64,000 nt of DNA from positions 372,001 through 436,000 of the forward strand of contig NZ_BBYF01000002.1 of the NCBI RefSeq assembly GCF_001894745.1, read 5' to 3'. Below, in pieces: positions 40,721-53,800 of the stretch; the first letter of the stretch is position 1, and every line of letters starts with the position of its first letter. The notes below the pieces were generated by a model. It had not been told where the DNA came from. It saw only the letters and a program-made list of their open reading frames with translations, and did not search any database. The DNA comes from Paenibacillus sp. NAIST15-1. GTDB lineage: Bacteria > Bacillota > Bacilli > Paenibacillales > Paenibacillaceae. The position numbers and the translations under genes are program-made.

Positions 40721-42991
40721 TTGGAGAAGCGACTATCATTATGCATGATCGTTAAGGATGAGGAGACATTTATCGGCATTTGTCTGGACAGCGTCAAGAA
40801 TGTTGTAGATGAAATCATTATTGTCGACACGGGATCATCCGATCAGACGATTCCAATATGCCAATCATATGGAGCGAACATATATGAAATGCCGTGGAAT
40901 GACAACTTTGCCGAAGCTCGCAATTATGCCCTGAAGCAAGCAACTGGCGACTGGATATTATGGATGGATGCGGATGAGAGGCTGGATTCAGATCAAGCCA
41001 TGTTGATTCGAGATATATTGCAAGAAGAGCAAGCTCACATCGGTGTAATTCAGCTGTTGAACTACATTGGGGAAGACACACCTAGCAGTGAGAAAACATA
41101 CTTAATTGGTCAGCATCGGCTGCTTCGCAATCATATGGGTTTCCAGTTCGTCGGAGCGATCCATGAACAGGTAAATGTACATGAGGTTCTGGGCGAGCAA
41201 TTCGATGTTAAAATCTTGCCCGTACAACTTCATCACTATGGCTACCTAGAAGCAGTAACTCATTTGCGGAACAAGTCGGAGCGGAACTTGCGATTATTAC
41301 AGATGGAGAAAGACAAGCCGGACTACAACCCGTGGGTCGATTATCATATTGCAAGTGAGCAGTATCGGCTGAAAAAGTATGCTGAAGCTTATGAGTCTGT
41401 AAATACTTCCGTTATGCGGTTTGTAGAACAGGGGAAGCTGCCACCGTCGCTTCTATATAAATTAAAATATGAGCTTATGTTGATCATGGGCAGTTATGAA
41501 GGGGCATGGCCTTCGATCGATAAGGCGATCGCGTTATATCCAGATTACGTTGATCTCCATTTCTACAAGGGGATCATCTTGTATTTAAAACAAAAGGTTG
41601 AACATGCATTGCCTGTATTTCAGTACTGTGTTGAGCTGGGGGAACAAAATATCTATCATCTTACGCTGCGAGGAGTTGGAAGCTTCCACGCTTGGTATTA
41701 TGTCGGGAAGTGCCATGAACTTCTTAATCATCGGGAAGAAGCGATACAGGCCTATGAGAATTGTCTAGAGGTAGATCGCAGCCATAAAGAAGCCAGAGAA
41801 GCGCTTGACCTGCTGCTAGCTCAGTCTAATCAGGTACAGCTAGATTCACATATTGAGGAGGCAGAAATGACGATGGATCAGTCTGCATCAATCACGGTTA
41901 GTCTATGTATGATTGTACGTAATGAGGAGATTGCACTAGCGCAATGTCTTGCATCAGTCCATAACATTGTTGATGAGATCATTATTGTTGATACGGGATC
42001 GACAGATCGGACGAAGGAGATTGCAGGACAGTATCAAGCCCGTATATTTGATTTTGAATGGATTGACGATTTTGCTGCTGCACGGAATTATGCCTTCAGT
42101 CAAGCTACACAAGAATATATTCTATGGCTCGATGCGGACGATGTGATAGAGAGTAAGGATCAACGCCTTCTAGTAGAGCTGAAGAAGACACTCACTCGTG
42201 ATGTTGATAGTGTGACCATGCACTATGTATTAATGGTTGATGATAAGGGGAATGTTACGTCTAGTCTGCGGCGAAATCGCTTAGTTAGGCGTGATCGTGG
42301 GTTCAAATGGTATGGGCCAGTGCACGAATATTTGGAAGTAGGCGGACATATTATTCATAGTGATGTGTGTGTCACACATAAGAAGGATAAAGCATATACC
42401 GATCGCAATTTGCGAATTTACGAGAAGAGACTTGCCGAGGGAGAGCAATTTACGCCTCGCGATCTATACTATTTTGCGAATGAATTGCGAGATCATTCCC
42501 GATTCGAAGAAGCAGCACACGGATATATGAAGTTCCTCGAAACAGAGCAAGGGTGGGTAGAGGATAATATTCAGGCGTGCAGAAAAATGGCGGAGTGTTA
42601 TGGCAAGTTGGGTCAACGTACCGAACAGTTTATGGCGCTGTTCCGCAGTTTCGTCTATGATAAGCCGCGAGCGGAAATATGCTGTGCGATTGGGGCCATG
42701 TGGGTGGACTCGGGGCATTTTCTACAAGCGAAGTACTGGTTCGAGCAAGCTACACTGCTTCCAGCAGATGAAGCGCAAATGTCTATGGTAGAGCCATCCT
42801 CATGGACGTGGGTACCGCATTTGCAGCTATGTGTATGTCATGATCGTCTTGGTGACATCGAGAGGGCTTGCTATCATAACGAGTTTGCACTCAGCTACCT
42901 TCCCTCTCATCCAAGTATGCTTCATAATCAGAAATATTTCCGCGAGAAGCTTGGCGAGGAACGATACGAACAGTTGAGAATCAAATTGTAG
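40721..42991 (+). CDS. Tandem family-2 glycosyltransferase with TPR repeats
   Basis: 756 residues made of two GT-A/TPR units. Unit 1: LSLCMIVKDEE, IIIVDTGSSDQT and WILWMDADERLD (DxD) up to about 215, then TPR helices to about 370. Unit 2: VSLCMIVRNEE, IIIVDTGSTDRT and YILWLDADDVIE (about 393-590), then TPR to the end. GT2/TPR proteins of this type transfer sugars to proteins or surface glycans (SunS-like fold). The start is the TTG at 40721 after AAAAGGGG; an ATG nearby is out of frame. Being upstream of a collagen/BclB gene, it probably glycosylates a spore-surface protein. Confidence 0.85.
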   Translation: MEKRLSLCMIVKDEETFIGICLDSVKNVVDEIIIVDTGSSDQTIPICQSYGANIYEMPWNDNFAEARNYALKQATGDWILWMDADERLDSDQAMLIRDILQEEQAHIGVIQLLNYIGEDTPSSEKTYLIGQHRLLRNHMGFQFVGAIHEQVNVHEVLGEQFDVKILPVQLHHYGYLEAVTHLRNKSERNLRLLQMEKDKPDYNPWVDYHIASEQYRLKKYAEAYESVNTSVMRFVEQGKLPPSLLYKLKYELMLIMGSYEGAWPSIDKAIALYPDYVDLHFYKGIILYLKQKVEHALPVFQYCVELGEQNIYHLTLRGVGSFHAWYYVGKCHELLNHREEAIQAYENCLEVDRSHKEAREALDLLLAQSNQVQLDSHIEEAEMTMDQSASITVSLCMIVRNEEIALAQCLASVHNIVDEIIIVDTGSTDRTKEIAGQYQARIFDFEWIDDFAAARNYAFSQATQEYILWLDADDVIESKDQRLLVELKKTLTRDVDSVTMHYVLMVDDKGNVTSSLRRNRLVRRDRGFKWYGPVHEYLEVGGHIIHSDVCVTHKKDKAYTDRNLRIYEKRLAEGEQFTPRDLYYFANELRDHSRFEEAAHGYMKFLETEQGWVEDNIQACRKMAECYGKLGQRTEQFMALFRSFVYDKPRAEICCAIGAMWVDSGHFLQAKYWFEQATLLPADEAQMSMVEPSSWTWVPHLQLCVCHDRLGDIERACYHNEFALSYLPSHPSMLHNQKYFREKLGEERYEQLRIKL

Positions 42992-43053
42992 AGGCATTTC
43001 ATTAATTACAGTCATATTTCCCAAGTATGTGATTGCGAAGTGAGGGGATTGTG

Positions 43054-51550: not shown

Positions 51551-51670
51551 GGATGGAATCATCGTTGAAATAGGTATTTGGTTACAGATGTGACGAGAAC
51601 CCCTTATCCTGTAATCACATATATGTATATGGTATCCAGAGTTTACATTATAGGATAGGGAGGGATATTG

Positions 51671-53800
51671 TTGTCGCAAGCTAACATACCTAATATTACA
51701 CCCATTATTACGGTAACTAGGGATGATGCAATCAATTTATTACTGTCCTCTATTGCTTTAGAAGAGCTTGGGTTAAGTCATATCCTTAATGCAGAAGGTG
51801 AAAAAATACAGTTTGCGCTTGGTACGCTGCCAGGAGTTACATCTCCTCCGGCGACTTTGAGCGATGTATTATTAGTCAATCAAAGTGTGCGTGACACACT
51901 TCGTGATGTGACGAAAAAAGAAATGCTGCTTCAAACAAAGCTGGAAACGGTTCTGGCAGCGCCTGTTGTTTCCGCAACAGGAGCAACAGGTGCTACCGGA
52001 GCCACAGGAGCAACAGGTGCAACGGGTGAAGCTGGGACAACAGGTGCAACGGGAGCAACCGGGGCAACGGGTGCAACAGGAGCAACCGGGGCGGGAGCCA
52101 CAGGTGCGACGGGCTCGACCGGTGTAACAGGTGCGACAGGAGCAACGGGCTCGACAGGTGCACAGGGTATTACTGGTCCAACTGGCCCGGGAGTAGGAGC
52201 CACAGGAGCTACGGGAGCCACGGGAGCAACAGGAGCGACAGGAGCAACGGGAGCGACAGGAGCAACCGGAGCAACGGGTGCAACAGGAGCAACCGGAGCA
52301 GGAGCCACGGGAGCAACAGGTGCGACAGGAGCAACCGGAGCGACCGGCGCCATCGGAGCAACGGGTGCAACAGGAGCAACCGGAGCAGGAGCCACGGGAG
52401 CAACGGGTGCGACAGGAGCAACCGGAGCGACCGGCGCCATCGGAGCAACGGGTGCAACAGGAGCAACCGGAGCAGGAGCCACGGGAGCAACGGGTGCAAC
52501 CGGCGTAACCGGAGCGACCGGCGCCATTGGAGCCACGGGAGCAACAGGAGCAACCGGAGCAGGAGCCACGGGAGCAACAGGTGCGACAGGAGCAACCGGA
52601 GCGACCGGCGCCATCGGAGCCACGGGAGCAACAGGAGCAACCGGAGCAGGAGCCACGGGAGCAACAGGTGCGACAGGAGCAACCGGAGCGACCGGCGCCA
52701 TCGGAGCCACGGGTGCAACAGGAGCAACCGGAGCAGGAGCCACGGGAGCAACAGGTGCGACAGGAGCAACCGGAGCGACCGGCGCCATCGGAGCCACGGG
52801 AGCAACAGGAGCAACCGGAGCAGGAGCCACGGGAGCAACGGGTGCGACAGGAGCAACCGGAGCGACCGGCGCCATCGGAGCAACGGGAGCAACAGGAGCA
52901 ACCGGAGCAGGAGCCACGGGAGCAACGGGTGCAACCGGCGTAACCGGAGCGACCGGCGCCATCGGAGCAACGGGTGCAACAGGAGCAACCGGAGCAGGAG
53001 CCACGGGAGCAACAGGTGCGACAGGAGCAACCGGAGCGACCGGCGCCATCGGAGCTACAGGTGCAACCGGAGCAACCGGAGCAACCGGAGCAGGAGCCAC
53101 AGGAGCCACAGGAGCCACGGGACCGACTGGACCAACTGGGCCGACGGGAGCAACAGGTGTTGCAGGAGCCACTGGAGCCACCGGAGTAGCGGGGGTTACC
53201 GGAGCTACAGGAGTGACTGGTGCGACCGGAGCAGGAGTTACCGGAGCAACTGGTCCAGCGGCACCATCTATTATTCCATTTGCGTCGTTCTTACCAATAT
53301 TGCTAACGACTGGTTTCTGTGGAGTAGCGGGTATTGGTGGTCTCATTGGATTCGGCAACAGCGCACAAACTCCATCGGTACTTGGAGCTACGATAGACCT
53401 TACGGGAGGACCTGGGATACCTTTAAATCTTGCATTTACAGTTCCATGTGGAGGAACCATTAAATGTATAGCTGCATACTTTAGTGTTACTTCAGGGCTC
53501 TGCTTAGACTGCTTGGGTGGGGTTAATCAAACGTTAACGATTCATGCTCAACTCTGGCAATCCACTGTGCCAGATAATATCTTTACACCAATAGCAGGAA
53601 CGTTAGTAGATCTGCAGCCATCATTGACGGGAGTTATTACGTTAGGTGAACACGTAAATGGGTTGCTGTCGGGATTGAATATCGTAGTTCCACCTCAAAC
53701 TCGCTTGCTTTTGGTATTCTCCGTTACGACTACTGGATTGACAGAGCCAATTTCGATTGCAGGTTATGCAAGTGGAGGAGTCACTATCATTTCGAATTAA
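51671..53800 (+). CDS. Collagen-like exosporium-type protein with BclB C-terminal domain
   Basis: 709 residues in three parts. 1-100: helical preface domain shared with the small proteins at 45.7 and 46.3 kb. 103-530: collagen-like Gly-X-Y repeats, mostly GAT, interrupted at regular intervals by GA-GAT breaks. 531-709: a globular beta-rich domain matching what I know of the BclB exosporium glycoprotein C-terminus ([55 protein letters not shown]). Threonines at Y positions are the usual O-glycosylation sites in such stems. TTG 51671 is chosen: GGGAGG is 7 nt upstream and the small paralogue also starts TTG-TC. A trimeric spore-surface filament is the likely product. Confidence 0.92.
52295..53086 (+). 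repeat. 87-bp tandem repeats in the collagen stem, nine copies
   Basis: Each unit encodes GA + (GAT)5 + GAI + (GAT)3, 29 residues; the ninth has one extra GAT (96 bp). Units 3 and 8 share a GVT variant, which suggests a block duplication of five units. The two-residue GA breaks the Gly-X-Y register once per unit. Confidence 0.9.

Follow-up and report, generated by a model that had tools for sequence, protein, structure and literature searches.

A candidate glycosylated spore-surface fibre locus of the A-ENA kind in Paenibacillus sp. NAIST15-1

What is built by a gene cluster in which a collagen protein lies beside short proteins that correspond to its N-terminal domain alone? The question is raised by Paenibacillus sp. 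NAIST15-1, in a window of 64,000 nucleotides (contig NZ_BBYF01000002.1, positions 372,001 to 436,000), where 12 genes are packed within 13 kb (40721..53800). They encode a collagen protein (COL), three short proteins (P1, P2 and P3), a repeat protein (X), an MBL-fold protein, five proteins of glycosyltransferase type (GT_A to GT_E) and a methyltransferase. A first-pass annotation had listed these open reading frames (ORFs), all of which were recovered at their positions, and had suggested a “spore-surface filament locus”, an idea that has turned out largely right. The locus probably encodes a system for glycosylated A-ENA (“spore silk”) fibres on the spore surface, as supported by homology to a solved subunit, predicted fold, a conserved gene module, linkage to glycosyltransferases, association with spore formers and a promoter signal. 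The composition of the locus is not due to chance, since 10 relatives show the same succession of genes.

The A-ENA-type domain and its free copies

No Pfam or NCBIfam model reaches its cut-off on the N-terminal domain of COL. This domain was found eight times in the 6.77-Mb genome, five times on collagen proteins (once in this window, once on contig C5 and three times in tandem on contig C3) and three times as a free-standing protein. All three free copies, P1 (45731..46036), P2 (46228..46578) and P3 (46614..47000), are situated on the forward strand of the window between 45731 and 47000. They are 58%, 52% and 32% identical to the COL domain, respectively, which bears out the earlier remark that two or three short proteins equal the COL N-terminus; P3 is a remote member, recognized by hhalign profile comparison with 98% probability.

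The domain profile matches the 101-aa subunit of PDB 9IHH, entitled “Ex vivo spore-silk A-ENA fibers” and released 2026-03-04, with E=3.8e-26, and P1 itself matches with E=1.3e-19; the two sides belong to the same sequence family (E 1e-19 to 1e-26) at about 101 aa. The match of the P3 class is weaker (P3 profile, 1.8e-7). In the AF2 model of P1 (mean pLDDT 90.9), an N-terminal connector (45731-45778) is followed by helices at residues 17-50 and 63-97, the same two-helix hairpin with connector as in 9IHH, and Foldseek finds 9ihh with this model (E=5.4e-4). Helix 1 of the domain carries conserved E/H/N/E residues, which might conceivably serve a ferritin-like metal function. In P2 the domain starts at 46267, the loop between the helices is short and the tail is acidic and contains Cys. 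The P3 model (helices 13-46 and 58-99, mean pLDDT 79.6) retains the hairpin and is devoid of the connector; its tail is acidic and ends in DY. Whereas 9IHH was solved as a fibre, P1-P3 are known here from sequence, and P1 and P3 also from predicted fold, and the genome differs in having three divergent paralogues, one of them connector-less, and five collagen-fused copies. P1 and P2 are most likely fibre subunits rather than anchors, because the domain profile and the P1 model both match 9IHH. The suggestion that stand-alone proteins form an undescribed class does not hold, since 9IHH is a fibre made of one. No publication on A-ENA was met in the literature searched, and the available portions of PMC10987987, PMC6238073, PMC6521208, PMC12020853 and PMC8968730 contain nothing on an A-ENA-type domain. 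P1-P3 gave no Pfam match at all, Enas included; the S/L-ENA family (PF13157, Enas) had no match in the genome, but the control was likewise silent.

Free and collagen-fused copies were compared in a set of 123 collagen, 98 free and 10 other domain proteins, a selection from the best 80 of 502 matches (L024-L099, 76 distinct loci) to a mostly collagen-fused query rather than a census. A tree of 222 domains shows 16 changes between “collagen-fused” and the rest, whereas 200 shuffles gave 74 on average and never fewer than 63. The P1-type clade holds 21 proteins with a support of 0.98 and zero collagen members, and 9IHH clusters with other free proteins, apart from P1, P2 and P3 (support 0.74). 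The free and the fused copies thus fall largely into different lineages. The connector, scored as the first 12 or more profile positions, is absent from 21 of 98 free proteins, chiefly those of the P3 class, but from only 2 of 123 collagen-fused proteins (p=1.5e-6), and is retained in P1- and P2-type proteins. By analogy with F-type ENA subunits, which dock by N-terminal hooks according to the accessible part of PMC11952670, the connector-less P3 may be an end subunit. We also note that six genomes of one genus (G246, G273, G298, G370, G394 and G416; 2.4-2.9 Mb) each contain one connector-less domain copy, and that no other module gene was seen in a 19-kb region from one of them (L183).

Spore formers, promoters and the P2-P3-X-MBL module

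A spore link had been proposed from the outset and is supported from two sides. In a sample of 200 genomes of the class, SpoIVA is present in all 33 domain-positive genomes (two of them, G583 and G615, being marginal matches) versus 148/200 overall (p=1.7e-5). The first-pass annotation had counted small proteins in non-spore-formers against its own idea; in the class sample, domain genes occur only in SpoIVA-positive genomes. The phylum sample gives 35/37 versus 336/398 (p=0.05), and the two domain-positive genomes without SpoIVA, G172 and G399, are both fragmented assemblies.

The second line of evidence comes from CATANNNTA, which we take to be the -10 element of mother-cell sigma factors. 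The box lies within 200 bp upstream of 61/231 domain genes, versus 70/1042 other ORFs and 13/239 AT-matched ORFs; these unique and AT-matched controls replaced an earlier control set (79/1083). The eleven remaining permutations of its four letters were found before 13-23 of the 231 genes, and 52 of 70 sites are located 25-75 bp upstream. A pattern scan of the window found the exact box upstream of GT_C (CATATGCTA, 45643..45651, reverse strand) and GT_D (CATATAATA, 48892..48900, forward strand) only, each a single site that is weak alone. Sporulation-type promoters of domain genes and co-occurrence with SpoIVA were not met in the literature searched. A vegetative biofilm or root-adhesion filament with an incidental link to spores is very improbable: collagen-like proteins of FZB42 do affect biofilm and one is reported with a BclB-like C-terminus (PMC4319854, in the portion available), but domain genes of the class sample are confined to SpoIVA-positive genomes, the -10 boxes are enriched upstream of them, and the title of 9IHH names a spore fibre.

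P2 and P3 belong to a conserved module. In the window as in ten relatives (L130-L139), the genes of P2, P3, X (47018..47905, forward strand) and the MBL-fold protein (47926..48930, forward strand) share one strand and one order, and neighbours are separated by short gaps or overlap slightly. The domain is found in 10/19 genomes of the genus sample, and the module in all 10 of these; in a wider sample, 28/98 genomes are domain-positive, regions were examined for 20 of the 28, and the module is present in 11/20. Two genomes of another family (L164 and L165) also hold MBL, X, P3 and P2. X occupies the same place in the 11 module loci. The assignment of the module is partly positional, since these very loci supplied the X profile; matches of the profile outside them are L164, L165 and L043, L062 and L094, where X lies beside P3 without MBL. 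The module was not met in the literature searched.

X, the repeat protein of the first-pass annotation, indeed contains six QPIQTVNQV repeats, together with a conserved C-terminal “[IV]G...[YF]” motif, and matches no Pfam family at cut-off. The idea that X is a divergent subunit was dropped, hhalign against P3 being empty and a comparison with PDB giving nothing convincing. A P3-X fusion in L142 (9626-10456) was likewise rejected: the P3 profile picks up the first half (1.7e-19), but the X profile misses the second, the likeness of which was judged by eye. The MBL-fold protein (PF00753, 34.2 bits) had been called metal-motif-defective. This stands for the Asp-His of HxHxDH, absent from all 11 aligned orthologues, and not for the rest of the motif; one metal site is probably kept, because the HxH, PGH, D and HGG positions remain intact. 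Close MBL homologues occur in 4/200 class genomes, three of them domain-positive and one (G578) negative.

In six relatives, a gene occupies the same place directly upstream of P2, and both of those tested encode ATP-grasp proteins of the YheC/D type (PF14398, E 4e-77 and 1.9e-79), a family that is presumably associated with the spore coat; the window has no gene in this position. Of the genomes compared, that of P. alvei DSM 29 (G017; L138, L024) is the closest, with 93% identity for P1 and 80% for GT_A. In this draft, P3 is split between two reading frames (L138:10709-11130), which leaves a 157-bp gap. A minimal cluster was observed in B. velezensis (L077:9899-13892) and B. atrophaeus (L065:10001-13995), consisting of a free P2-like protein with a Pro/Asp/Cys-rich tail, a small protein, a GT2-like gene and a domain-collagen; homology of the small gene to X is unsupported.

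Glycosyltransferases and the collagen protein

Four of the five glycosyltransferases that had been annotated are GT2 proteins by Pfam, while the fifth, GT-like GT_E, has no Pfam family at cut-off. GT_A (40721..42991, forward strand) has the arrangement GT2-TPR-GT2-TPR with two matches to PF00535, and GT_B (43033..44316, forward strand) has one (E=6e-27). GT_C (44393..45550), a GT2+TPR protein (PF00535 and TPR), lies on the reverse strand, divergent from P1; GT_D (48955..50094, forward strand) combines TPR with GT2 (PF00535, 7.7e-10). The methyltransferase (50112..50786, reverse strand) belongs to Methyltransf_24 (3e-28), as annotated, with orthologues in L132, L134 and L138. GT_E (forward strand), first called as 50672-51550, probably starts at about 50846 and ends at 51550, because the P. 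alvei orthologue begins there; the overlap with the methyltransferase gene thereby disappears. GT_A is 50% identical to GT_C over 7-373, scores 135.8 bits against the SunS family TIGR04195, below the cut-off of 350, and has orthologues in several module loci.

The solved structures nearest to GT_C are GmaR (22AO, 1.3e-38) and SunS (7MSN, 2.2e-22). We take GmaR to be the flagellin glycosyltransferase of Listeria and SunS a peptide S-glycosyltransferase. The likeness lies in the GT2 catalytic domain; in contrast, GT_A has two such domains, and the genomic partner here is a gene of a spore-fibre family. With GT_C as the query defining an A-ENA-linked subfamily, close homologues (E<=1e-86, a cut picked after seeing the gap to 7e-72) number 15 in 13/200 class genomes; all 13 genomes are among the 33 domain-positive ones (p=6e-12), and every homologue lies 24-3906 bp from a domain gene. 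Such a link of a GmaR/SunS-like subfamily with domain genes was not met in the literature searched. The linkage with glycosyltransferases that had been proposed is supported, although the converse fails: 20/33 domain-positive genomes have no close homologue at this cut, which weighs against the reading of a glycosylated fibre. At E<=1e-50 GT_C matches 42/200 genomes; of the 29 genomes thus gained, 26 lack the domain. The genome searches score a limited number of candidates per genome.

Among 20 more distant regions, hand-picked from other positive class and phylum genomes and mostly with several matches, 11 carry a GT_C-type enzyme. A long uninterrupted Gly-X-Y run is present within the fetched stretch in only 3 of these 11, the tag demanding more than 40 residues and thereby missing short or interrupted collagens. 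The enzymes may then serve the A-ENA subunits, which would be glycosylated by the GmaR/SunS-like proteins, with collagen as an optional cargo; this variant, compatible with the preferred fibre reading, is plausible though short of probable. The proximity of the GT_C subfamily to domain genes in 13/13 genomes and the 3/11 count are in its favour, against which the run-length filter overlooks some collagens and COL itself, with 134 Gly-X-Y triplets and Thr at Y in 107/134, is an obvious acceptor.

COL (51668..53800, forward strand) consists of the A-ENA domain (51671-51964), the Gly-Ala-Thr collagen region, borne out by Pfam, and a C-terminal domain (53264-53788). The last had been annotated as BclB-like, and rightly so: this part alone matches TIGR03721, the BclB C-terminal family, with 152.7 bits (cut-off 93.15), a match that hmmscan of the whole protein had missed. 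COL shares the collagen stalk and this domain with the exosporium collagens BclB and BclA; the N-terminus of COL is an A-ENA domain, whereas theirs is a short exosporium leader. The leader family TIGR03720 was not listed for COL in the same whole-protein scan that missed TIGR03721.

A domain-collagen gene is present in the window and in 9/10 module regions of relatives. L134 holds the module with GT_A, GT_B and the methyltransferase and has no domain-collagen in the 18 kb fetched. The predicted conserved linkage with collagen genes is therefore seen in all but this region, and the claim of a “complete” assembly unit is unproven. The same data bear on the initial proposal, in which the free proteins serve a collagen filament as its basal anchors or co-assembly partners; the filament would itself be the main fibre as in a BclB-like nap, with no separate fibre of free subunits. 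COL adjoins the free genes in the window and these nine regions, five domain-collagens accompany three free copies in the genome, and P3-type proteins have no connector, all as expected for anchors. But the one solved relative to be found, 9IHH, is a fibre built from a free subunit of 101 aa, the connector is intact in P1- and P2-type proteins, and L134 keeps module and enzymes without the collagen. This makes the proposal unlikely: P1 and P2 resemble a polymerising subunit, and P3 alone fits an end or anchor.

Several other collagens were observed. At L017:6757-11525, three collagen genes with an A-ENA-type N-terminus stand in tandem, and the gene after them encodes a non-collagen protein; the three tandem domain-collagens of L. 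sphaericus (L064) are arranged similarly. The collagen BclS of Lysinibacillus sphaericus is reportedly positioned through its N-terminal domain. A further collagen with a BclA_C head (PF18573, 145 bits; L019:5977-6822) has, by eye, no A-ENA-type domain, and in L141 the domain resides on non-collagen proteins (6654-7379 and 11583-13253), once N-terminal and once C-terminal. Long collagen repeats lie at or near the ends of contigs C6, C21, C26 and C31 of the NAIST15-1 genome; the assembly probably breaks there, and the collagen count is therefore a lower bound.

A phage or plasmid origin was rejected, the domain being found in 0/50,697 phage records and 1/72,556 plasmid records, the single plasmid match being a B. 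velezensis replicon of 807 kb. PADLOC and PHROGs searches returned marginal DruC and tail matches on X and collagen-type tail-fibre matches on COL, all of which were read as compositional.

The proposed fibre and its relatives

In the preferred fibre reading, a thin fibre would form during sporulation as P1 and/or P2 polymerise in the mother cell. Each subunit has an extended connector at its N-terminus and a hairpin of two helices, and the connector would dock into the neighbouring subunit. COL, which has the same domain with its connector, could dock on the fibre or its end and display a stalk of trimeric Gly-X-Thr collagen that ends in a BclB-type head, like F-BclA on F-ENA. P3, a hairpin without connector, would receive but not insert, as an end or base subunit, and might work with X and the MBL-fold protein, whose genes come immediately after its own. 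GT_A to GT_D would glycosylate Thr/Ser of COL, of the subunits or of both, and the methyltransferase would modify the sugars. We infer polymerisation, docking, the roles of P3, X and MBL, and the sugar acceptor.

The available part of PMC11952670 describes a comparable arrangement in F-ENA, F-Anchor and F-BclA: a spore fibre of small subunits, a docking element shared by collagens and a glycosyltransferase gene nearby. The F-ENA subunit, in contrast, is a DUF4183 beta-barrel, and DUF4183 (PF13799) has no match in the window proteins scanned, P1-P3 and COL included. Two DUF4183 genes of F-ENA type lie on a different contig of the genome (C3:448005-448845); the organism may therefore make two kinds of spore fibre.

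A further elaboration, tentative and rather doubtful, combines specialised ends with fibre glycosylation: P3, X and the site-2-deficient MBL as base or cap, P1/P2 as shaft, domain-collagens as tips, and GmaR/SunS-like enzymes decorating the fibre. If true, a dedicated glycosyltransferase subfamily accompanies A-ENA genes in Bacilli and beyond, in more distant Bacillota, and spore silk is a glycoprotein.

The stand-alone proteins belong to the already known A-ENA family, and the novelty may lie in the surrounding parts. A domain without a Pfam or NCBIfam model is now tied to a named spore-fibre family, and the locus offers a candidate parts list for A-ENA, with subunits for the shaft, a connector-less one for the end, collagens for the tips and protein glycosyltransferases. 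The authors of the F-ENA study, in the portion of PMC11952670 available, note that F-Anchor-2a has no exosporium leader and suppose that in Paenibacillaceae F-ENA-2a is coupled to the spore in another way than the ExsF-based one. An A-ENA-type N-terminus offers one alternative route by which collagen may be placed on such spores.

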